Assembly: GCA_943735955.1 (NCBI GenBank)
Contig: OX030967.1
Location: forward strand, 1,541,681 to 1,605,680
Length of the DNA: 64,000 nucleotides
From: Piscicola geometra
Taxonomy: Eukaryota; Annelida; Clitellata; Hirudinida; Piscicolidae
Direction of reading: 5' to 3'
Under the pieces are notes generated by a model. The model was not told where the DNA came from. It made no database searches and was given only the letters and a program-made list of their open reading frames with translations. This document shows positions 1-30,647 of this stretch, in pieces. The translations under genes and the position numbers were made by a program. The first letter of the stretch is position 1; each line of letters starts with the position of its first letter.

Positions 1-3000
1 ACACTCACCCACCCTGGCACACTCACCCATCCTGGCACATTCACCCACCCTGGCACACTCACCCACCCTGGCACACTCACCCACCCTGGCACACTCACCC
101 ACCCTGGCACACTCACCCATCCTGGCACACTCACCCACCCTGGCACACTCACCCACCCTGGCACACTCACCCACCCTGGCACACTTACCCACCCTGGCAC
201 ATTCACCCACCCTGGCACACTCACCCACCCTGGCACACTCACCCACCCTGGCACACTTACCCACCCTGGCACATTCACCCACCCTGGCACACTCACCCAC
301 CCTGGCACACTCACCCACCCTGGCACACTCACCCACCCTGGCACACTCACCCACCCTGGCACACTCACCCACCCTGGCACACTCACCCACCCTGGCACAC
401 TCACCCACCCTGGCACATTCACCCACCCTGGCACATTCACCCACCCTGGCACACTCACCCACCCTGACACACTCACCCACCCTGGCACACTCACCCACCC
501 TGGCCCACTCACCCACCCTGGCACACTCACCCACCCTGGCACAACTACCCACCCTGGCACACTCATCCACCCTGGCACACTCATCCACCCTGGCACACTC
601 ACCCACCCTGGCACACTCACCCACCCTGGCACACTCACCCACCCTGGCACACTCACCCAACCTGGCACACTCACCCACCTTGGCAGACTCACCCACCATG
701 GCACACTCACCCACCCTGGCACACTCACCCACCCTGGCACACTCACCCACCCTGGCACACTCACCCATCCTGGCACATTCACCCACCCTGGCACACTCAC
801 CCACCCTGGCACACTCACCCACCCTGGCACACTCACCCACCCTGGCACACTCACCCATCCTGGCACACTCACCCACCCTGGCACACTCACCCACCCTGGC
901 ACACTCACCCACCCTGGCACACTTACCCACCCTGGCACATTCACCCACCCTGGCACACTCACTCACCCTGGCACACTCACCCACCCTGGCACACTTACCC
1001 ACCCTGGCACATTCACCCACCCTGGCACACTCACCCACCCTGGCACACTCACCCACCCTGGCACACTCACCCACCCTGGCACACTCACCCACCCTGGCAC
1101 ACTCACCCACCCTGGCACACTCACCCACCCTGGCACACTCACCCACCCTGGCACACTCACCCACCCTGGCCCACTCACCCACCCTGGCACACTCATCCAC
1201 CCTGGCACACTCACCCACCCTGGCACACTTACCCACCCTGGCACACTCACCCACCCTGGCACACTCACCCACCTTGGCACACTCACCCACCCTGGCAAAC
1301 TCACCCACCCTGGCACACTCACCCACCCTGGCACACTCACCCACCCTGGCACACTCACCCACCCTGGCACACTCACCCACCTTGGCAGACTCACCCACCC
1401 TGGCACACTTACCCACCCTGGCACATTCACCCACCCTGGCACACTCACCCACCCTGGCACACTCACCCACCCTGGCACACTCACCCACCCTGGCACACTC
1501 ACCCACCCTGGCACACTCACCCACCCTGGCACACTCACCCACCCTGGCCCACTCACCCACCCTGGCACACTCATCCACCCTGGCACACTCACCCACCCTG
1601 GCACACTCACCCACCCTGGCACACTCACCCACCCTGGCACACTCACCCACCTTGGCACACTCACCCACCCTGGCAAACTCACCCACCCTGGCACACTCAC
1701 CCACCCTGGCACACTCACCCACCCTGGCACACTCACCCACCCTAGCACACTCACCCATCCTGGCACATTCACCCACCCTGGCACACTCACCCACCCTGGC
1801 ACACTCACCCACCCTGGCACACTCACCCACCCTGGCACACTCACCCACCCTGGCACACTCACCCACCCTGGCACACTCACCCACCTTGGCAGACTCACCC
1901 ACCCTGGCACACTTACCCACCCTGGCACATTCACCCACCCTGGCACACTCACCCACCCTGGCACACTCACCCACCCTGGCACACTCACCCACCCTGGCAA
2001 AACTACCCACCCTGGCACACTCACCCACCCTGGCACACTCACCCACCCTGGCACACTCACCCACCCTGGCACACTCACCCACCTTGGCAGACTCACCCAC
2101 CTTGGCAGACTCACCCACCCTGGCACACTTACCCACCCTGGCACATTCACCCACCCTGGCACACTCACCCACCCTGGCACACTCACCCACCCTGGCACAC
2201 TCACCCACCCTGGCACACTCACCCACCCTGGCACACTCACCCACCTTGGCACACTCACCCACCCTGGCAAACTCACCCACCCTGGCACACTCACCCACCC
2301 TGGCACACTCACCCACCTTGGCAGACTCACCCACCCTGGCACACTTACCCACCCTGGCACACTCACCCACCCAGGCACACTCACCCACCCTGGCAAACTC
2401 ACCCACCCTGGCACACTCACCCACCCTGGCACACTCACCCACCCTGGCACACTCACCCACCCTGGCACACTCACCCATCCTGGCACATTCACCCACCCTG
2501 GCACACTCACCCACCCTGGCACACTCACCCACCCTGGCACACTCACCCATCCTGGCACACTCACCCACCCTGGCACACTCACCCACCCTGGCACACTCAC
2601 CCATCCTGGCACATTCACCCACCCTGGCACACTCACCCACCCTGGCACACTCACCCACCTTGGCACACTCACCCACCCTGGCAAACTCACCCACCCTGGC
2701 ACATTCACCCACCCTGGCACACTCACCCACCCTGGCACATTCACCCACCCTGGCAAACTCACCCACCCTGGCAAACTCACCCACCCTGGCACACTCACCC
2801 ACCCTGGCACACTCACCCACCCTGGCACACTCACCCATCCTGGCACATTCACCCACCCTGGCACACTCACCCACCCTGGCACACTCACCCACCCTGGCAC
2901 ACTCACCCATCCTGGCACACTCACCCACCCTGGCACACTCACCCACCCTGGCACACTCACCCACCCTGGCACACTCACCCACCCTGGCACATTCACCCAC

Positions 3001-6000
3001 TCTGGCACACTCACCCACCCTGGCACATTCACCCACCCTGGCACACTCACCCACCCTGGCACACTCACCCACCCTGGCACACTCACCCACCCTGGCACAC
3101 TCACCCATCCTGGCACACTCACCCACCCTGGCACACTCACCCACCCTGGCACACTCACCCACCCTGGCACACTCACCCACCCTGGCACACTCACCCACCC
3201 TGGCACACTCACCCACCCTGGCACACTCACCCACCCTGACACACTCACCCACCCTGGCACACTCACCCACCCTGGCACACTCACCCATCCTGGCACACTC
3301 AACCACCCTGGCACACTCACCCACCCTGGCACACTCACCCACCCTGGCACACTCACCCACCCTGGCACATTCACCCACTCTGGCACACTCACCCACCCTG
3401 GCACACTCACCCACCCTGGCACACTCACCCACCCTGGCACACTCACCCACCCTGGCACATTCACCCACCCTGGCACATTCACCCACCCTGGCACACTCAC
3501 CCACCCTGGCACATTTACCCACCCTGGCACACTCACCCACTCTGGCACATTCACCCACCCTGGCACACTCACCCATCCTGGCACATTCACCCACCCTGGC
3601 ACACTCACCCACCCTGGCACACTCACCCACCCTGGCACACTCACCCACCCTGGCACATTCACCCACCCTGGCACACTCACCCACCCTGGCACACTCACCC
3701 ACCCTGGCACACTCATCCACCCTGGCACACTCACCCACCCTGGCACATTCACCCACCCTGGCACACTCACCCACCCTGGCACATTCACCCACCCTGGCAC
3801 ACTCACCCACCCTGGCACATTTACCCACCCTGGCACACTCACCCACTCTGGCACATTCACCCACCCTGGCACACTCACCCATCCTGGCACATTCACCCAC
3901 CCTGGCACACTCACCCACCCTGGCACACTCACCCACCCTGGCACACTCACCCACCCTGGCACACTCACCCACCCTGGCACACTCACCCACCCTGGCACAC
4001 TCATCCACCCTGGCACACTCACCCACCCTGGCACACTCACCCACCCTGGCACACTCACCCACCCTGGCACATTCACCCACCCTGGCACACTCACCCACCC
4101 TGGCACAACTACCCACCCTGGCACACTCATCCACCCTGGCACATTCACCCACCCTGGCACACTCACCCACCCTGGCACACTCACCCACCCTGGCACACTC
4201 ACCCACCCTGGCACACTCACCCACCCTGGCACACTCACCCACCCTGGCACACTCACCCACCCTGGCCCACTTACCCACCCTGGCACACTCACCCACCCTG
4301 GCACACTCACCCACCCTGGCACACTCACCCACCCTGGCACACTCACCCACCCTGGCACACTCACCCACCCTGGCACACTCACCCACCCTGGCACACTCAC
4401 CCACCCTGGCACACTCACCCACCCTGGCACACTCACCCACCCTGGCACACTCACCCACCCTGGCACACTCACCCACCCTGGCACACTCACCCACCCTGGC
4501 CCACTTACCCACCCTGGCACACTCACCCATCCTGGCACACTCACCCACCCTAGCACACTCACCCACCCTGGCACACTCACCCACCCTGGCACACTCACCC
4601 ATCCTGGCACATTCACCCACCCTGGCACATTCACCCACCCTGGCACACTCACCCACCCTGGCACATTCACCCACCCTGGCACAACTACCCACCCTGGCAC
4701 ACTCACCCACCCTGGCACATTCACCCACCCTGGCACACTCACCCACCCTGGCACACTCACCCACCCTGGCACATTCACCCACCCTGGCACATTCACCCAC
4801 CCTGGCACACTCACCCACCCTGGCACACTCACCCACCCTGGCACACTCACCCACCCTGGCACACTCACCCACCCTGGCACACTCACCCACCCTGGCACAC
4901 TCACCCACCCTGGCACACTCACCCACCCTGGCACACTCACCCACCCTGGCACACTCACCCATCCTGGCACACTCACCCACCCTGGCACACTCACCCACCC
5001 TGGCACACTCACCCACCCTGGCACACTCACCCACCCTGGCACATTCACCCACTCTGGCACACTCACCCACCCTGGCACATTCACCCACCCTGGCACACTC
5101 ACCCACCCTGGCACACTCACCCACCCTGGCACACTCACCCACCCTGGCACACTCACCCATCCTGGCACACTCACCCACCCTGGCACACTCACCCACCCTG
5201 GCACACTCACCCACCCTGGCACACTCACCCACCCTGGCACACTCACCCACCCTGGCACACTCACCCACCCTGGCACACTCACCCACCCTGACACACTCAC
5301 CCACCCTGGCACACTCACCCACCCTGGCACACTCACCCATCCTGGCACACTCAACCACCCTGGCACACTCACCCACCCTGGCACACTCACCCACCCTGGC
5401 ACATTCACCCACTCTGGCACACTCACCCACCCTGGCACACTCACCCACCCTGGCACACTCACCCACCCTGGCACATTCACCCACCCTGGCACATTCACCC
5501 ACCCTGGCACACTCACCCACCCTGGCACATTTACCCACCCTGGCACACTCACCCACTCTGGCACATTCACCCACCCTGGCACACTCACCCATCCTGGCAC
5601 ATTCACCCACCCTGGCACACTCACCCACCCTGGCACACTCACCCACCCTGGCACACTCACACACCCTGGCACATTCACCCACCCTGGCACACTCACCCAC
5701 CCTGGCACACTCACCCACCCTGGCACACTCATCCACCCTGGCACACTCACCCACCCTGGCACATTCACCCACCCTGGCACACTCACCCACCCTGGCACAT
5801 TCACCCACCCTGGCACACTCACCCACCCTGGCACATTTACCCACCCTGGCACACTCACCCACTCTGGCACATTCACCCACCCTGGCACACTCACCCATCC
5901 TGGCACATTCACCCACCCTGGCACACTCACCCACCCTGGCACACTCACCCACCCTGGCACACTCACCCACCCTGGCACATTTACCCACCCTGGCACACTC

Positions 6001-8815
6001 ACCCACCCTGGCACACTCACCCACCCTGGCACACTCATCCACCCTGGCACACTCACCCACCCTGGCACACTCACCCACCCTGGCACACTCACCCACCCTG
6101 GCACACTCACCCACCCTGGCACATTCACCCACCCTGGAACACTCACCCACCCTGGCACAACTACCCACCCTGGCACACTCATCCACCCTGGCACATTCAC
6201 CCACCCTGGCACACTCACCCACCCTGGCACACTCACCCACCCTGGCACACTCACCCACCCTGGCACACTCACCCACCCTGGCACACTAAACCCACCCTGG
6301 CACACTCACCCACCCTGGCACACTCACCCACCCTGGCACACTCACCCACCCTGGCACACTCACCCACCCTGGCACACTCACCCACCCTGGCACACTCACC
6401 CACCCTGGCACACTCACCCACCCTGGCCCACTTACCCACCCTGGCACACTCACCCACCCTGGCACACTCACCCACCCTGGCACACTCACCCACCCTGGCA
6501 CACTCACCCACCCTGGCACACTCACCCACCCTGGCACACTCACCCACCCTGGCACACTCACCCACCCTGGCACACTCACCCACCCTGGCACACTCACCCA
6601 CCCTGGCCCACTTACCCACCCTGGCACACTCACCCATCCTGGCACACTCACCCACCCTGGCACACTCACCCACCCTGGCACACTCACCCACCCTGGCACA
6701 CTCACCCATCCTGGCACATTCACCCACCCTGGCACATTCACCCACCCTGGCACACTCACCCACCCTGGCACATTCACCCACCCTGGCACAACTACCCACC
6801 CTGGCACACTCACCCACCCTGGCACATTCACCCACCCTGGCACACTCACCCACCCTGGCACACTCACCCACCCTGGCACATTCACCCACCCTGGCACATT
6901 CACCCACCCTGGCACACTCACCCACCCTGGCACACTCACCCACCCTGGCACACTCACCCACCCTGGCACACTCACCCACCCTGGCACATTCACCCATCCT
7001 GGCACACTCACCCACCCTGGCACACTCACCCACCCTGGCACACTCACCCACCCTGGCACACTCACCCACCCTGGCACACTCATCCATCCTGGCACACTCA
7101 CCCACCCTGGCACACTCACCCACCCTGGCACACTCACCCACCCTGGCACATTCACCCACCCTGGCACATTCACCCACCCTGGCACACTCACCCACCCTGG
7201 CACACTCACCCACCCTGGCACACTCACCCACCCTGGCACACTCACCCACCCTGGCACACTCACCCACCCTGGCACACTCACCCACCCTGGCACACTCACC
7301 CACCCTGGCACACTCACCCACCCTGGCACACTCACCCACCCTGGCACACTCACCCACCCTGGCCCACTTACCCACCCTGGCACACTCACCCACCCTGGCA
7401 CACTCACCCACCCTGGCACACTCACCCACCCTGGCACACTCACCCACCCTGGCACACTCACCCACCCTGGCACACTCACCCACCCTGGCACACTCACCCA
7501 CCCTGGCCCACTTACCCACCCTGGCACACTCACCCACCCTGGCACACTCACCCACCCTGGCACACTCACCCACCCTGGCACACTCACCCACCCTGGCACA
7601 CTCACCCACCCTGGCACACTCACCCACCCTGGCACACTCACCCACCCTGGCACACTCACCCACCCTGGCACACTCACCCACCCTGGCACACTCACCCACC
7701 CTGGCCCACTTACCCACCCTGGCACACTCACCCATCCTGGCACACTCACCCACCCTGGCACACTCACCCACCCTGGCACACTCACCCACCCTGGCACACT
7801 CACCCATCCTGGCACATTCACCCACCCTGGCACATTCACCCACCCTGGCACACTCACCCACCCTGGCACATTCACCCACCCTGGCACAACTACCCACCCT
7901 GGCACACTCACCCACCCTGGCACATTCATCCACCCTGGCACACTCACCCACCCTGGCACACTCACCCACCCTGGCACATTCACCCACCCTGGCACATTCA
8001 CCCACCCTGGCACACTCACCCACCCTGGCACACTCACCCACCCTGGCACACTCACCCACCCTGGCACACTCACCCACCCTGGCACATTCACCCATCCTGG
8101 CACACTCACCCACCCTGGCACACTCACCCACCCTGGCACACTCACCCACCCTGGCACACTCACCCACCCTGGCACACTCATCCATCCTGGCACACTCACC
8201 CACCCTGGCACACTCACCCACCCTGGCACACTCACCCACCCTGGCAAACTCACCCACCCTGGCACACTCACCCACCCTGGCACACTCACCCACCCTGGCA
8301 CATTCACCCATCCTGGCACACTCACCCACCCTGGCACACTCACCCACCCTGGCACACTCACCCACCCTGGCACACTCACCCACCCTGGCCCACTTACCCA
8401 CCCTGGCACACTCACCCACCCTGGCACACTCACCCACCCTGGCACACTCACCCACCCTGGCACACTCACCCACCCTGGCACACTCACCCACCCTGGCACA
8501 CTCACCCACCCTGGCACACTCACCCACCCTGGCACACTCACCCACCCTGGCACACTCACCCACCCTGGCACACTCACCCACCCTGGCACACTCACCCACC
8601 CTGGCCCACTTACCCACCCTGGCATATTCACCCACCCTGGCACAACTACCCACCCTGGCACACTCACCCACCCTGGCACACTCATCCACCCTGGCACACT
8701 CACCCACCCTGGCACACTCACCCACCCTGGCACACTCACCCACCCTGGCACGCTCACCCACCCTGGCACACTCACCCACCCTGGCACACTCACCCACCCT
8801 GGCACAACTACCCAC
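1..8815 (-). repeat. 18-bp minisatellite filling USP8 intron 6 (about 490 copies, continues left)
   Basis: The unit on the gene strand is GTGCCAGGGTGGGTGAGT. Common variants differ by one or two bases (plus strand: CACATTC, CCCACTTACC, CACAACTACC, CTCATCC). One 19-bp unit at about 6284-6300 breaks the frame. The unit is six codons, so both strands stay open for kilobases (AHSPTL on plus, VPGWVS or ARVGEC on minus). Every unit carries a GGTGAGT 5' splice-site-like motif on the gene strand. Variant units recur at fixed offsets (1098 and 2052 bp), showing higher-order duplication. Confidence 0.97.
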
Positions 8816-9035
8816 CCTGGCACGGCATGGCTTATGTTGATGAGATGGGACGTAATGGTGATGTGGCATTCCTCAAACTCCTCCTTCTTTCTCACGTCTA
8901 TCAATAAGATCGAGACGGGTGGTGCTGATGATGATGAAGATGGTGATGAGGAGGAGGAGGAGGAGGAGGAGGCAAGGACAGGGCTTGGTGGAGGGTTGGT
9001 GCACAGCTTGTACAACTTCTTGGCACTGATCCAGC
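8816..9035 (-). CDS. USP8: USP8 exon 6 (rhodanese domain, first half) with poly-Ser insert
   Basis: A 220-nt exon with acceptor CACCAGCAG. It encodes G-WISAKKLYKLCTN, then a Pro/Ser-rich insert (poly-Ser at 8926-8970), then SILLIDVRKKEEFEECHI and LINISHAVPG. Human USP8 has ITAKELYTMM and LIIMDARR, then ends this segment with ISPG. The proximal donor is GTGGGTAG at 8815-8808. The last eight exon bases (GTGCCAGG) are identical to part of the 18-bp unit that then repeats about 490 times, so the true 3' end of the exon is ambiguous in steps of 18 nt, and all steps keep frame. Confidence 0.85.
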
Positions 9036-10301
9036 CTGCTGGTGACTGAGGATCTGTGCCGTGAGTGGTGGTGCTGATGATGATGATCATGAGGATCATG
9101 GTGGTGGTAGGAGGTGGTATGAAAAGCTGGGAAAAAGTAGTGATGATAATGATGAATAAGGTTGGTGATTAAGTTAGTATTGATGCCACAGGGCAAAAGT
9201 AGCAGATAATCGTCATCATAACAGGGAGTGGTGGTGGAGTGGTGGTGGAGTGGTGGTGGTAAGGACGGAGTGGTGGTGGTAAGGATGGAGTGGTGGTGGT
9301 GATGGAGTAGTGGTGGTAAGGATGAAGTGGTGGTGGTGGTGTAGTGGTGGAGTGGTGGTGGAGTGGTGGTGGAGTGGTGGTGGTGGTGAGATGGTGGTGA
9401 TGGTGATGGGTTGGTGGTGATGGAGGGGTGGTGGGATGGAGTGGTGGTGGTGAGGGAGTGGTGGTGGTGAAGAAGAGGTGGTGGTGATGGAGTGGTGGTG
9501 GTGATGGAGTGGTGGTGGTGGTGGTGGTGGTGGTGGTGGTGGTGATAGTTATGGAGTGGTGGTGGTGTTGGAGTGGTGGTGATGGAGTAGTGGTGGTGGT
9601 GGTGGTGGTGATGGAGTGGTGGTGGTGGTGGTGATGGAGTGGTGGTGATGGTGGTGATAGAGTGGTGGTGGTGTTGGAGTGGTGGTGGTGGTGGTGATGT
9701 AGCGTGGTGAGGGAGTGGTGGTGGTGATAGAGTGGTGATGGAAAGCAATGGTGATAGAATGGATCTGATAACGACAGACACTCACCATACAGAATGCCAG
9801 TCATTTTACTACGGTATTGCTGCAACAAACTCTCCTTCTTCTCTCCATCCACTCCCCCATTCAGCACTACTCCCTTCCCTCCATATCTTTCCCCCCCTTT
9901 CTTTCTCTCCTCCCTTCCTTCACTCTCTGTCCGCTCCTTCCCTCTCCCACCTTCTCCAGTGTGCACTTCCAACCTCTCCAATCTCTCACTCACTTCCAAT
10001 GCCTCCTTCTCTTCGTACCTGAAGGCGGTGATGATGATAGTGGTGGTAGTAATGATAATGATGGTGGTGGTGAGATGCGGATGATGATGATGATGATGGT
10101 GGTGATGTTATAGTCAATAGGGTAGTGCGATGATGGAACAAAGTGTTTGAGGTATTCATGATAATAAGCGCGGTGGTAAATGGTGGTGATGATGATAGTA
10201 GTATTGGTTAATAACTATTAACACAAAACCACCTCAGAACCATTCTACCCCTGTTACTATTCCTTCCCCCTACCCCTATTATCATCAATCCATCCCCATC
10301 G

Positions 10302-10382
<81 letters not shown>

Positions 10383-13300
10383 CCTATTCTTTAGTTCCAT
10401 GCTCAGCTTTTCGGCCCTCTCGATCACCTTCAGGCACTTCTCCGCCCCCATCACGGCCTCAAAGTACTTCTGCCAGGTGGTGCAAGGTGGTGCCAGGTGG
10501 TGCAAGGTGGTGCAAGGTGGTGCCAGGTGGTGCAAGGTGGTGCAAGGTGGTGCCAGGTGGTGCAAGGTGGTGCAAGGTGGTGCCAAATGGTGCAAGGTGG
10601 TGCCAGGTGGTGCAAGGTGGTGCAAGGTATTGCCAGGTGGTGCCAGGTGGTGCAAGGTGGTGCAAGGTGGTGCCAAATGGTGCCAGGTGGTGCCAGGTGG
10701 TGCAAGGTGGTGCCAAATGGTGCAAGGTGGTGCCAGGTGGTGCAAGGTGGTGCAAGGTGGTGCCAGGTGGTGCAAGGTGGTGCAAGGTGGTGCAAGGTGG
10801 TGCCAAATGGTGCAAGGTGGTGCCAGGTGGTGCCAGGTGGTGCAAGGTGGTGCAAGGTATTGCCAGGTGGTGCAAGGTGGTGCCAAATGGTGCAAGGTGG
10901 TGCAAGGTGGTGCCAGGTGGTGCAAGGTGGTGCCGGGTGGTGCAAGGTGGTGCCAAATGGTGCAAGGTGGTGCAAGGTGGTGCCAGGTGGTGCAAGGTGG
11001 TGCAAGGTGGTGCAAGGTGGTGCCAGGTGGTGCAAGGTGGTGCAAGGTGGTGCTAGGTGGTGCCAAATGGTGCAAGGTGGTGCCAGGTGGTGCCAAATAG
11101 TGCAAGGTGGTGCCAGGTGGTGCCAGGTGGTGCAAGGTGGTGCAAGGTGGTGCCAAATGGTGCAAGGTGGTGCCAGGTGGTGCAAGGTGGTGCTAGGTGG
11201 TGCAAGGTGGTGCCAAATGGTGCAAGGTGGTGCCAGGTGGTGCAAGGTGGTGCCAAATGGTGCAAGGTGGTGCCAGGTGGTGCCAGGTGGTGCAAGGTGG
11301 TGCAAGGTGGTGCAAGGTGGTGCCAAATGGTGCAAGGTGGTGCCAGGTGGTGCAAGGTGGTGCCAGGTGGTGCAAGGTGGTGCAATGTGGTGCAAGGTGG
11401 TGCAATGTGGTGCAAGGTAGTGCAAGGTGGTGCCAGGTGGTGCAAGGTGGTGCAATGTGGTGCAAGGTGGTGCCAGGTGGTGCAAGGTGGTGCCAGGTGG
11501 TGCAAGGTGGTGCAAGGTGGTGCAAGGTGGTGCCAGGTGGTGCAAGGTGGTGCCAGGTGGTGCAAGGTGGTGCAAGGTGGTGCCAGGTGGTGCCAGGTGG
11601 TGCCAAGTGGTGCAAGGTGGTGCCAGGTGGTGCACATTATCAATGCAGACAACTGCACATACAACCATCAACTTTTCTTTTCTCAACCTAACCCAAAACA
11701 ATATATTGCTTTCATCACATCATCCCTTTTATCAAAAGTAATTCAACAACCACCCCTCCCTCCATCATACCCATCACTTTCTTCCACTACATCTCTCCCT
11801 CCCACCTATCTCCACATCCATATACCTCCACCTCGCACCTACCTCCACCACCAACCACCTCATCCACTACCTTCACCACTCACCACCACACTCACCAACC
11901 CACTTCCCATCCACCTTCCACCCATTACCACCTTCCACCCATCACCACCACCACTACCACCACCACCCACCCACCTCCCACATCGAACCACCTCCACCAC
12001 CTACCACCAACTACCACCACCCATCTACCACCACCTCCCACCCACCTACCACCATCCACCTACCTCCACCTCCACCACCTCCACCACCTCCACCTCCATC
12101 ACCACCTCCACCTCCACCACCACCTCCACCTCCACCACCACCTCCACCTCCACCACCACCTCCACCTCCACCACCACCTCCACCACCTCCACCTCTACCT
12201 CCACCACCTCCACCTCCACCACCTCCACCTCCACCACCTCCACCTCCACCACCTCCACCACCACCTCCACCTCCACCTTCACCACCTCCACCTCCACCAC
12301 CTCCACCATCACCTCCACCACCTCAACCACCACCTCCACCACCACCTCCACCACCTCCACCACCACCACCTCCACCACCTCCACCTCCCACCTTATCCTC
12401 CTTGTACTCCTTGCTCTTTTTGATGGACGAGACGATGGTGAAGTACCTCATATACAACACATAAGCCCTCTCCTGGTCGCCTGCGTGGTCAAGTGGTCAA
12501 GTGCTTTGTGCTCGAGACTTTAACTCAAAAGTCGTCGCTTCGATTGCTTCACATCGTTTAATAGCTAAGAGGTTTGAGATCAAATGTTCTCGTTCAAGGC
12601 AGTGGCTGTGTGTCCAAGGCAACAGTTCGTCCGTCGAGTCGACGAGGACCCCTTCAGTCAATCAGGTGTGTGTGCGCAGATGGATGATGAGGCCGATCCT
12701 GGCACGGAAGGTTCGGGAACATGAGGGACATGGGATAAGTGCGACGTCTCCAGGAGGGTTGACAGTGCGGGCTTTTCAGACTTGCCTCTTCTTTTCTGCG
12801 GCATTGATCCTGTTTGCCTCACAGGTCATGGCACCTTTGTGAATGGAAGAGCGCCAGGTGGAACGATTTGTTGAAGCTTGTTCTTAAGTTTCTACGTTGA
12901 TGGAAAACGCTTTCAGTGAGGCTTTCAGAGTGTCTTTGAAGCGTTTCTTTTGCCCACCCTGAAACCGCTGTGCATGCAGAAGTTCACCATAGAAAAGTCT
13001 TTTTGGCAGTCTCTCGTCTGGCACTCGGACAACGTGCCCTGCCCAGCGAAGCTGAGATTGCATTAGCAGGGTGAAGTTGCTGGGAAGACCTGCTGTGGAC
13101 AGTACCACTGTGTCTGGAATTTTGTCCTGCCATTTTATACCGAGGATTTTCCTGAGGCTTGTTGTGTGAAAGTGGTTCAACTTCCTAGCATGGCGTTGAT
13201 ATATAGTCCACGTTTCACATGCATATACCAGTGTCGGAAGCACCACAGCCCTGTATACTTTCAGCTTTGTCTTGGTGGTGATGCCTCTTCTGTTCCAGAC

Positions 13301-16300
13301 GTTGGGGTACAGCCTGCCAAAGGTGGAACAGGCTCTAGCAATCCTGACATTCACTTCGTCATCGATAGTGACACTTTGGGATAGTGTACTGCCTAGGTAG
13401 GTGAACCGGTCCCCTGTGTTGAGTTTTTGTCCATTAACCGTGAAGTAAGGTTCAACGTAGGACTTTCCGGGTGCTGGCTGATGAAGGACTTCAGTCTTCT
13501 TTGTGCTGATCGTCAGACCAAAGTTTGTGCAGGCGCTGGAGAACAGGTTAACGCTGCGTTGCATGTTGGCTTCTGAGACAGCGTTGAGGGCACAGTCATC
13601 AGCAAACAGCAGGTCTCTGATGATGTCTGTCGTAACTTTGGTTTTTGACTGGAGCCTCCGAAGGTTGAACCGTTTGCCATCTGAGCGGTACTTTAGATTG
13701 ACACCAACCACCTGATCTCTGAAGGCATCGGTCAGCATGGCTGAAAACATAAGGCTAAATAGAATGCAGCCTTGCTTGACCCCGTTCGTGACTGGGAAAG
13801 GGTCAGATGATTCTCTTCTGTCTTGGACTCTGGCTTGCATGCCATCGTGGAATTTTTTCACCAAGACAATGAATTTCCTTGGACAACCGTACTTGGCCAT
13901 GATCTTCCATAGACCCTTTCTACTGACGGTGTCGAAAGCCTTGGTGAGGTCCAAATATGTAGAAAACAGGTCAGAGTTTTGTTCCTGACACTTTTCTTGC
14001 AGCTGCCTGGCAGCAAAAACCATGTCGATGGTTTCACGTTTTTTACGGAAACCACACTGACTTTCAGGCAGGAGACCTTGGTCAAGGTGGGCTGTGAGGC
14101 GGTTGAGCAGGATTCTGGCGAAAATCTTTCCTGCAATGGAAAGCAGTGATATGCCTCTGTGGTTGTCGCAGGCTTGTCTACTTCCTTTCTGCTTGTAGAG
14201 ATGTATAATGGAAGCATCTCTAAATTTCTGCGAAATCGTCTCTTTCTCCCACATCAATAGGTACAACTGGTGGAGCCTTTTAGTCAGGGCTGGTCCCTCC
14301 TCCTTGTAGACCTCAGCTGGTATAGCGTCTGAACCAGGTGCTTTGCCACTGGAAAGAAGACGTATTGCTTCCTGGGTCTCGTGCAAGGTTGGAGGATCAT
14401 CCAGTGCTTCGTTGGTGGGCACTTGGGGAAGACGATTGATGGCTTCGACGTTGATGTTGGAAGGGCAATTGAGGAGGTTGTCAAAGTGTTCGGCCCTTCT
14501 CTCCAAGATCTTCTCTTTGTCAGTAATGAGAGTGTAACCATCTGCGCTGAGGAGGGGATATGAGCCAGAAGACGTGGGGCCATAAACTTCTTTCAAGGAG
14601 TTATAAAAAATTTTGCGGTCCTTCTTGTCTGCATAAGCCTGGATCTCGTCGGCTTTGTTACTCAGCCAATCGTCCTGCATCTTACGAAGTTTGAGCTGCA
14701 CTGTTTTGCGTATGTTGATGTATGCATCTCTCCTTGTCGTGGACTTGGGGTTGGCGAGATAAGCTTGGTGAAGATGGTGTTGTTATCCAATAACTGCTTG
14801 ATGACTTCGCAGTTCTCGTCAAACCAGTCCTTGTGCTTCTTGATCTGGGGTCCCAGAGTCTCTGAAGCTGCGGTGGAACTTAGCTCTCTAAGTGACGCCC
14901 AACCTTCCTCCACATTCTGGTTATTCGGAAAGGTGGATTCCAAACGATCTTCCAAAGCGTCCACAAAATACTGCTTGCAGCTGGCACAATTGAGCTTGGC
15001 GATATTCAGCCGTTTGGGAACCTTTTTGCCTTGCGAGCGTCGTTTCGGCTGAATGCGGATGTTGAACTTGGTGATAATGAGACGGTGATGTGTCCAGCAT
15101 TCAGCACCTCAAACTGACTTGGTCACTCGTAAATCTTGCCTGTCCTTCTTCCTCACGATGACGTAGTCGATAAGATGCCAGTGCTTTGAGCGAGGGGGTA
15201 TCCATGACGTCCGATTACGAGAAGGAAGGCGGAAGATCGTGTTTGTGATCACAAGATCATGTTCAGCACACGTCTGGAGCAAGAGAAGGCCGTTGCTGTT
15301 GCAGTGGCCCACTCCATGATGTCCGAGAACTCCTTCCCAGGCAGCGTTGTCCTTGCCAACTCTTGCCTTGAAGTCACCAAGCAAGACGAGTTTGTCCACC
15401 TTTGGAACGTCGGCAATGACAGTGTGAAGTTCTTCGTAGAACTTTGCTTTTACTTCATCTGGGTTGATCATGGTTGGAGCGTAGGCGCTGATGATGGTGA
15501 GATGCTTCCTTCCAACCATGAGTGGGAGTTTCATGGTCATGAGCCTGTCGTTCACTCCTTTGGGAAGTCCTGCCAGCTTTTCAACAAGAGTTGTCTTAAC
15601 TGCAAAGCCAACACCTGTTTCACGTCGTTCTTCGCTGGGTCTGTCACTCCAGAAAAATGTGTAGCCAGAGCCTCTTTCGCAGAGCTCTCCTTCTTCCGCA
15701 AGCCTGGTCTCGCTCAAGGCTGCGATGTCAATGGCTTATCTGGCGAGTTCTTGACCTATCAGGTCTGTTCTTCTCTGGGGTTGTCCCCATCGACTCTGTC
15801 CAAGAGTTTCCGAACATGTCCAAGGCAACTATAATAAGACTGTTTCAACATTAAATTATCAAACTCTTCTTAGTTTTATTATCATTATTATTATTAGTAT
15901 TATTATTACATTCAGCACCTGCCAAGTGACTCGACTCTGCTTCCTTCAAGAGCTTGCCACTCGAGGTGAGCAGCCTGTCGAGTGGTTGTTGCTTGTTGGT
16001 TGCTTGATGGGATTGGTTGGTTGGTTGGTTGGTTGGGATTGGTTGGTTGGTTGGTTGGTTGGTTGGTTGGTTGGGATTGGTTGGATGGGATTGGTTGGTT
16101 GGTTGGTTGGTTGGTAGAGATTGGTTGGTTGGTTGGGATTGGTTGGTTGGTTGGGATTGGTTGGTTGGTTGGTTGGTTGGTTGGTTGGTTGGGAATGGTT
16201 GGTGGGTTGGTTGGTTGGTTGGGATTGGTTGGATGGGATTGGTTGGTTGATTGGATGGGATTGGTTGGTTGGGATTGGTTGGTTGGGATTGGTTGGTTGG

Positions 16301-27310: not shown

Positions 27311-28220
27311 TTCATCGTCTTCATCGTCTTCATCGTCTTCACCGTCTTCATCGTCTTCATCGTCTTCATCGTCTTCACCGTCTTCACCGTCTTCATCATT
27401 TTCATCGTCTTCACCGTCTTCACCGTCTTCACCGTCTTCACCGTCTTCACCGTCTTCATCGTCTTCACCGTCTTCATCGTCTTCATCGTTCGTCTTCACC
27501 GTCTTCACCGTCTTCATCGTCTTCACCGTCTTCATCGTCTTCACCTTCTTCATCGTCTTCATCGTTCGTCTTCACCGTCTTCATCGTCTTCACCGTCTTC
27601 ATCGTCTTCACCGTCTTCATCGTCTTCACCGTCTTCATCGTCTTCACCGTCTTCATCGTCTTCACCGTCTTCATCGTCTCCATCGTTCGTCTTCACCGTC
27701 TTCACCGTCTTCATCGTCTTCACCGTCTTCATCGTCTTCACCGTTTTCATCGTCTTCATCGTCTTCACCGTCTTCATCGTCTTCATCGTTCGTCTTCACC
27801 GTCTTCACCGTCTTCATCGTCTTCACCGTCTTCATCGTCTTCACCGTCTTCATCGTCTTCACCGTCTTCACCGTCTTCATCGTCTTCATCGTTCGTCTTC
27901 ACCGTCTTCACCGTCTTCATCGTCTTCACCGTCTTCATCGTCTTCACCGTTTTCATCGTCTTCATCGTCTTCACCGTCTTCATCGTTTTCATCGTTCGTC
28001 TTCACCGTCTTCACCGTCTTCATCGTCTTCACCGTCTTCATCGTCTTCACCGTCTTCATGGTCTTCACCGTCTTCACCGTCTTCACCGTCTTCACCGTCT
28101 TCACCGTCTTCTCCGTCTTCATCGTTCGTCTTCATCGTCTTCACCGTCTTCACCGTCTTCATCGTCTTCATCGTCTTCACCGTCTTCATCGTCTTCATCG
28201 TCTTCATCGTCTTCATCGTC
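27311..28220 (-). repeat. 9-bp GAAGACGRT satellite, unit 1 array (0.9 kb)
   Basis: About 100 units of GTCTTCATC or GTCTTCACC (plus) are interrupted by hinges (TCATCGTTCGTCTTC) at 27483, 27559, 27671, 27783, 27886 and 27989. It is bounded by unique spacer CAACCAACACC on the left and a 65-bp 18S piece on the right. Open frames (KTMKTV, EDGEDD, VFTVFI, LHRLHR, SSSPSS) are unit translations only. Confidence 0.95.
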
Positions 28221-28285
28221 TTGCAACCATACTTCCCCCGGAATCAAAAATCTTTGGTTTCCCGGAGACTGCCCGCGGGGTCATA
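28221..28285 (-). pseudogene. 18S rRNA central fragment fused to the satellite (copy 1)
   Basis: The minus strand reads TATGACCCCGCGGGCAGTCT, CCGGGAAACCAAAGATTTTT, GATTCCGGGGGAAGTATGGT, TGCAA. This is the conserved 18S segment just before the GCTGAAACTTAAAGG block. Exactly after TTGCAA the sequence becomes GACGATGAAGACGAT repeat. Only about 65 bp is retained. Confidence 0.88.
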
Positions 28286-29587: not shown

Positions 29588-30582
29588 TTCATCGTCTTCA
29601 TCGTCTTCATCGTCTTCACCGTCTTCATCGTCTTCATCGTCTTCATCGTCTTCACCGTCTTCACCGTCTTCATCATTTTCATCGTCTTCACCGTCTTCAC
29701 CGTCTTCACCGTCTTCACCGTCTTCACCGTCTTCATCGTCTTCACCGTCTTCATCGTCTTCATCGTTCGTCTTCACCGTCTTCACCGTCTTCATCGTCTT
29801 CACCGTCTTCATCGTCTTCACCTTCTTCATCGTCTTCATCGTTCGTCTTCACCGTCTTCATCGTCTTCACCGTCTTCATCGTCTTCACCGTCTTCATCGT
29901 CTTCACCGTCTTCATCGTCTCCATCGTTCGTCTTCACCGTCTTCACCGTCTTCATCGTCTTCACCGTCTTCATCGTCTTCACCGTTTTCATCGTCTTCAT
30001 CGTCTTCACCGTCTTCATCGTCTTCATCGTTCGTCTTCACCGTCTTCACCGTCTTCATCGTCTTCACCGTCTTCATCGTCTTCACCGTCTTCATCGTCTT
30101 CATCGTCTTCACCGTCTTCATCGTCTTCACCGTCTTCATCGTCTTCATCGTTCGTCTTCACCGTCTTCACCGTCTTCATCGTCTTCACCGTCTTCATCGT
30201 CTTCACCGTTTTCATCGTCTTCATCGTCTTCACCGTCTTCATCGTCTTCATCGTTCGTCTTCACCGTCTTCACCGTCTTCATCGTCTTCACCGTCTTCAT
30301 CGTCTTCACCGTCTTCATCGTCTTCATCGTCTTCACCGTCTTCATCGTCTTCACCGTCTTCATCGTCTTCATCGTTCGTCTTCACCGTCTTCACCGTCTT
30401 CATCGTCTTCACCGTCTTCATGGTCTTCACCGTCTTCACCGTCTTCACCGTCTTCACCGTCTTCACCGTCTTCTCCGTCTTCATCGTTCGTCTTCATCGT
30501 CTTCACCGTCTTCACCGTCTTCATCGTCTTCATCGTCTTCACCGTCTTCATCGTCTTCATCGTCTTCATCGTCTTCATCGTC
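29588..30582 (-). repeat. 9-bp GAAGACGRT satellite, unit 2 array (1.0 kb)
   Basis: It is clearly the same array as unit 1: the first about 250 bp is base-for-base alike, including the CATCATTTTCATC and CACCTTCTTCATC variants. Internal block gains and losses change the hinge spacing (29760, 29836, 29912, 30024, 30145, 30248, 30369, 30481). Confidence 0.95.
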
Positions 30583-30647
30583 TTGCAACCATACTTCCCC
30601 CGGAATCAAAAATCTTTGGTTTCCCGGAGACTGCCCGCGGGGTCATA
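30583..30647 (-). pseudogene. 18S rRNA central fragment fused to the satellite (copy 2)
   Basis: It is identical in extent and junction to the fragment at 28221-28285, showing that the fusion predates duplication of the unit. Confidence 0.88.

Follow-up and report, generated by a model that had tools for sequence, protein, structure and literature searches.

Minisatellites that repeat a 5' splice site have been described in human and amphioxus genes. The VNTR in intron 18 of human ABCA7 begins at the exon donor, carries a donor in each 25-bp unit and can extend to 10,678 bp (about 427 units). Transcripts that retain one unit make up 2 ± 1%, whatever the length of the array, whereas next-exon skipping goes up in longer arrays (PMC5954066). 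The "mirages" of amphioxus, found in Adh3 and globin genes, are minisatellite-like copies of exon-intron boundaries, many of them with AG/GT signals. Globin mirage units measure 150–160 bp and those of Adh3 10–72 bp, haplotypes of BflGb6 carry 3 and 6 units, and RT-PCR suggested undisturbed splicing (PMC3087553). Intron gain by tandem duplication has also been described, for the potato RdRp gene (PMC4974935).

An 18-bp array at the exon 6/intron 6 junction of USP8 in Piscicola geometra is of the same kind as the ABCA7 VNTR and the amphioxus mirages, and the view taken in a preliminary description of the locus, that no such case had been described, therefore has to be given up. Like the ABCA7 array, the USP8 array starts at the donor, bears a donor in each unit and runs to hundreds of units, but retention of a 25-bp ABCA7 unit shifts the reading frame, whereas an 18-bp unit keeps it. 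The ABCA7 array is moreover described from the donor GT onward, whereas the USP8 unit includes 8 exon nucleotides. With the mirages, it shares tandem copies of an exon-intron boundary that contain splice signals; the globin mirages, however, have few and longer units, and the accessible text on them does not mention a frame-keeping ladder. As in intron gain of the potato RdRp type, copies bearing splice sites become intronic, although that type yields new introns, whereas in USP8 an existing intron was enlarged between conserved flanking residues. A 2007 paper by Zhuo is reportedly titled in terms of "introns from tandem arrays". No earlier in-frame boundary array was found in the literature searched, which is thin in subscription papers, and the accessible portions of PMC2812944 and PMC12783039 describe no such array. 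Within that literature, what is new here is the frame-keeping unit length, the share of the intron that is occupied and the presence of two arrays in one gene.

USP8 and the exon 6 junction

The gene was identified as USP8, in agreement with the preliminary description, by USP8_dimer, rhodanese and UCH regions that lie in order in one gene and by matches to the proteins P0121 and P0122 and to the human structures 2GWF and 1WHB. Positions without a contig name refer to the window, that is, the whole stretch of 64,000 nucleotides analysed. The USP8_dimer exon (12392..12490, minus strand; PF08969, 42.6 bits) has its donor after 12392, and tblastn with P0121 and P0122 located the second part of this domain at 10383..10472 (minus strand; ends approximate, scored donor after 10384). 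A further exon upstream of exon 6 was located with P0122 (tblastn) at 9934..10020 (minus strand; ends approximate). Exon 6 (8816..9054, minus strand, 239 nt) encodes the first half of the rhodanese domain, as indicated by homology to P0121 and to human 2GWF/1WHB, and exon 7 (C13:1538653-1538485, minus strand, 169 nt; acceptor CACACGCAG/G TCG ACA GGC) joins it in phase 2. The UCH match of the gene is at C13:1530641-1530739 (45.6 bits). In tblastn searches with P0121 and P0122, the exons were ordered on C13 from USP8_dimer to the catalytic domain, and P0121 was the closest protein among the matches listed (E 9e-64 against the stitched gene model). Pfam PF00581 alone scored the rhodanese region at 19.6 bits, below the cut-off of 22.2, and the rhodanese assignment is made by homology: exon 6 joined to exon 7 at CCAGG/G matched the structures 2GWF (E 0.01) and 1WHB (E 0.011) of the human USP8 rhodanese domain when the poly-Ser stretch was partly omitted from the query, and both alignments are gapless at the exon 6/7 junction. 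With exon 6 alone as the PDB query, no USP8 structure was among the matches. The poly-serine stretch within the rhodanese domain is encoded by (CTC)n at 8948-8972 in exon 6, and its length differs in a partial gene copy on contig C36 (see below). Upstream of the USP8_dimer exon, open frames at 12887-15735 (minus strand) resemble a non-LTR retrotransposon, judging by endonuclease and reverse transcriptase motifs spotted by eye.

Exon 6 ends in ...GTG CCA GG. As had been described, its tail on the minus strand reads GTGCCAGG to position 8816, followed by the intron start GTGGGTAG. The junction (8815..8816, minus strand) is a phase 2 donor, AGG/GTGGGT, with the phase assigned from exon 7 and from the conserved P-G-x-T. 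The exon-intron boundary does lie within the repeat, since the 18-bp array delimited by TRF and unit segmentation (1..8823 in the window, minus strand) takes in the last 8 bases of exon 6. Unit 1 (8806..8823, minus strand), GTGCCAGG/GTGGGTAGTT, accordingly consists of 8 exon nucleotides (8823-8816) and 10 intron nucleotides (8815-8806). Beyond the left edge of the window, the array runs on to C13:1538821, and segmentation divides it into 649 units; 648 measure 18 nt and a single one 19 nt. There are 33 unit types, the consensus GTGCCAGGGTGGGTGAGT accounting for 401 units, and variant types come back in ordered blocks along the array. Intron 6, counted from 8815 up to but not including the first base of exon 7, measures 11,842 nt, and the array takes up 11,675 nt of it (98.6%, by arithmetic). 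A 14-nt boundary word (8 exon and 6 intron nucleotides, ≤2 mismatches) recurs 166 times over the following 3 kb, compared with at most twice in 20 base shuffles, so chance does not explain the array. The unit thus crosses the exon-intron boundary and retains splice signals, as in mirages (598 of the 648 18-nt units have an intact in-register GT), and, as in ABCA7, the array holds the authentic donor and then repeats it downstream.

We consider it quite probable that a boundary minisatellite grew from the exon 6 junction, that splicing proceeds mostly from the first donor and that the array is near-neutral. A stretch of 18 nt across the junction, 8 from the end of exon 6 and 10 from the start of intron 6, would have been tandemly duplicated, and the resulting minisatellite would have grown, by slippage or unequal exchange, until its units filled nearly the whole intron.

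Donors, reading frame and predicted splicing

The consensus unit holds four GTs, of which the only one that fits exon 7 is the phase 2 donor CCAGG/GTGGGT. A GTGAGT donor, present in 502 units, lies 4 nt downstream of it in phase 0, and joining TGG/GTGAGT to exon 7 shifts the frame and leads to a stop within exon 7. Both donors had been named in the preliminary description, which took any downstream donor to be frame-neutral; CCAGG/GTGGGT is indeed in phase, whereas TGG/GTGAGT belongs to another register, and frame neutrality is confined to the former. From exon 6, the sense frame stays open until a TAG codon at 6288-6286, which the single 19-nt unit (6285..6303, minus strand) puts into the VPGWVS frame. 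Instead of the hundreds of in-frame donors first suggested, an intact in-register GT is found in 131 of the 140 units ahead of this TAG. A stop occurs in just 1 of 648 units in the VPGWVS register. Over 3,894 codons, the three sense frames of the array contain 1 (the frame continuing exon 6), 141 and 509 stops and the antisense frames 0, 1 and 7. With four of six frames at ≤7 stops, an open frame in this array is uninformative; the openness over about 140 units that had been pointed out is real, but it is expected without selection and lends no support to a coding role.

Donor strength was compared by U1 pairing and by a small matrix built from 27 hand-assigned donors of the same genome. In unit 1, the in-frame donor exceeds its competitor by both measures (−10.9 vs −6.0 kcal/mol; matrix 9.0 vs 4.7). 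From unit 2 onward, U1 pairing ranks the GTGAGT donor (−12.3 kcal/mol) above the in-frame donor (−10.1 kcal/mol), whereas the matrix places the in-frame donor (9.0) slightly above GTGAGT (8.29). The out-of-frame donor of unit 1 is GTAGTT. With regard to the idea that this donor was weakened by selection, we counted its unit type, which occurs in 15 of 648 units; unit 1 of the C36 copy lacks GTAGTT. Selection on the array frame was considered separately, as positions 7 and 8 of the unit do not vary over the first 140 units and show 28 changes in the later 509. This contrast was not taken as evidence because units that recur in blocks are non-independent.

Most transcripts would be predicted to run from the first, exon-proximal donor AGG/GTGGGT to exon 7 and to encode a normal rhodanese domain, while a small fraction may use a later unit; by analogy with ABCA7 and the amphioxus mirages, a few percent of USP8 transcripts are expected to come from downstream donors. 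Whether such a transcript stays in frame or is shifted would depend on which of the two donors 4 nt apart wins. A later in-register donor would add VPGWVS-type hexapeptides without a frameshift, and these would sit between the conserved P-G and T. The insert would therefore fall within the rhodanese domain, before exon 7, and would not form the tail of that domain that had been envisaged. Use of TGG/GTGAGT would reach the exon 7 stop, and the RNA would probably be degraded. Taken by itself, the array is most likely close to neutral.

Alternatively, U1 bound to decoy donors along the array might slow the splicing of intron 6 or cause exon 7 to be skipped, so that USP8 output would fall with array length. 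Both GT donors are intact in most of the 648 units (598 and 622), exon 7 has 169 nt, so that its skipping would shift the frame to an early stop, and in ABCA7 a longer array goes with more skipping of the next exon. Nonetheless, the one-unit and exon-18 events of ABCA7 are unchanged with array size and regular splicing was suggested by RT-PCR for the amphioxus mirages, and we regard an effect of this type in USP8 as unlikely. It is doubtful, too, that the array serves as a functional generator of isoforms, in which regular use of in-register downstream donors would place a variable number of VPGWVS units in the rhodanese domain. The 18-nt length is divisible by three, nearly all units ahead of the TAG (131/140) retain the in-register GT, conceptual joins to exon 7 after 1, 2 and 3 added units give products that read in frame, and ABCA7 provides a precedent for a usable next-unit donor. 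On the other hand, frame openness would be expected without selection (four of six frames with few stops; a stop in one unit of 648), the frame-shifting GTGAGT donor, with its stronger U1 pairing, follows 4 nt downstream in 502 units, and an insert would break a conserved domain. Protein searches with 556-, 752- and 254-aa queries also returned no own-species transcript or protein over exons 6–7: the first two gave distant relatives only (among the best 120 of 245 and the best 120 of 1213 matches), and the 254-aa query gave none.

Origin of the intron 6 array

The preliminary description had the array seeded by the junction, and this stands as the best reading: the P-G at the junction is conserved, the repeat is private to the locus, and a partial copy of the gene on C36 has the junction with 2.1 units. 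Among 208 relatives with a match in the junction region (from 221 listed proteins, mostly vertebrates), 192 have both P and G at the junction, 204 have the G and 199 have a T two positions further on; the exon 6/7 junction of the window gene reads P-G-S-T. This conservation makes the coding end of exon 6 look ancestral, with the exon as the most likely source of the repeat unit. A 31-nt repeat probe (≤2 mismatches) gave 624 matches genome-wide and 624 within the intron 6 array, which indicates that the repeat is private to the USP8 locus, with privacy judged by the equality of these counts and match places listed for the first matches. GT-rich arrays with other units exist elsewhere in the genome. 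The recurrence of variant units in blocks is what unequal exchange predicts. Judged on these comparisons, the array most likely grew out of the exon end.

The diverged partial duplicate of the USP8 region (C36:276239-293817; L013, L001, L014) lies on a contig with several mutually similar recurring blocks. It contains an open exon 6 and an identical junction, followed by 2.1 units and then unrelated sequence, and exon 7 was not found in this copy. C36 and C13 align in islands, and 7.3 kb beside exon 6 match the C13 region at a single 487-bp stretch only (E 1e-10). The idea that C36 represents a short ancestral allele was rejected on these grounds, namely the lack of exon 7 there, the island-like alignment and the unrelated sequence after 2.1 units. 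The shared junction with its 2.1 units suggests that units at the junction probably predate the duplication, but the copy is mute on the length of the array at that time, because exon 7 and the sequence preceding it were not found there.

Conversely, the array might have been born inside the intron and crept across the donor, overwriting the exon end, in which case the likeness of exon tail and repeat unit would reflect homogenisation. Several other USP8 splice sites adjoin arrays that have no repeated exon bases, and GT-rich arrays with differing units are common in this genome. However, CCAGG/G encodes the P-G that is conserved across USP8 proteins (192/208), which an invading repeat would have had to match by luck, and, by the counts of the 31-nt probe, the repeat occurs nowhere else in the genome, so that we find this course of events improbable. 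Although arrays this large assemble poorly, a single assembly was available and a second, partial USP8 copy lies on C36, it is very improbable that the array length is an assembly artefact or that the C13 copy is not the working USP8, given USP8-matching exons in order from USP8_dimer to the catalytic domain, an exon 7 located on C13 alone (among 40 scored of 1975 candidates) and 33 unit types that lie in ordered blocks.

A second donor-seeded array in USP8

Growth from the exon 6 junction, the reading we prefer for intron 6, has a counterpart further along the gene, where the exon 12 donor seeded a second array. The exon 12 end reads TTGAACAGG/GTGTGTGGAGGGAG, and repeats of a 29-bp unit, GTCAACAGGGTGTGTGGAGGGAGAGGAGG, come after it; within this unit the exon end AACAGG/GTGTGTGG recurs. 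This array (L010:2244-5019, corresponding to C13:1523932-1526702, left of the window) has about 93 copies according to TRF. A 23-nt exon 12 probe has 93 matches genome-wide, all within C13:1523932-1526702; the match at 1526680-1526702 is the exon 12 end itself. A 14-nt boundary word occurs 92 times in the 3 kb that follow, compared with a maximum of once in 20 shuffles. About 84% of intron 12 is taken up by the array (by arithmetic, with an approximate start of the next exon). Exact copies of the exon 12 donor are spaced at 29 nt (48 cases), 32 nt (18), 33 nt (8) and 27 nt (4), and retention of a unit would therefore usually cause a frameshift.

Boundary arrays were found at 2 of 12 USP8 donors scored (3 kb searched at each) vs 0 of 17 kinase exon ends (about 340 bp each), two samples that differ in searched length and in which donors were assigned by eye. 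Six of the 18 USP8 exons were unscored (the last exon and five for which no donor had been assigned). The kinase sample comprised 20 ends chosen by eye from 147 matches (short, stop-free open frame, with the match ending inside the domain); L050, L052 and L055 were dropped for having no donor, and L043 was scored at a non-GT point. The absence of boundary arrays from the kinase ends suggests that the process is not general at such sampling depth.

Simple arrays also adjoin USP8 splice sites at 10297-10382, 10471-11634 and 11828-12393; they include a donor of the form AATAG/G(TGA)n, a 10-bp array that runs up to an acceptor and a GTGG-rich array at the USP8_dimer donor. Left of the window, (TG)n follows the exon 7 donor and (AC)n precedes exon 8. 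Very large arrays with 9-bp units of the TTCATCGTC type (41977-64000, 32697-37794, 29588-30584 and 27311-28222) occupy a large part of the window's right half. As for telomere-type repeats, a run of six TTAGG units had 0 matches.

ABCA7, as far as the accessible account goes, illustrates that such arrays can be relevant to disease. If in-register downstream donors are used in USP8, the peptide to expect is HAVPGWVVVPGSTGK, and the products would form a ladder of USP8 proteins whose rhodanese domain holds 0, 1, 2 or more copies of VPGWVS and whose amounts depend on where the donor lies and how long the array is. We would entertain only tentatively, as an unlikely generalisation, that 5' splice sites of this lineage repeatedly seed minisatellites that fill introns and that, if the unit length is divisible by three, create an in-frame ladder of exon extensions. 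With two arrays in one gene, tandem growth from donors suggests itself as a way in which introns enlarge. The intron 6 array also offers a natural experiment in donor choice, with hundreds of nearly identical tandem sites facing the spliceosome, and because in most units the in-frame donor lies 4 nt from a frame-shifting one, effects of donor position would be readable from cDNA.
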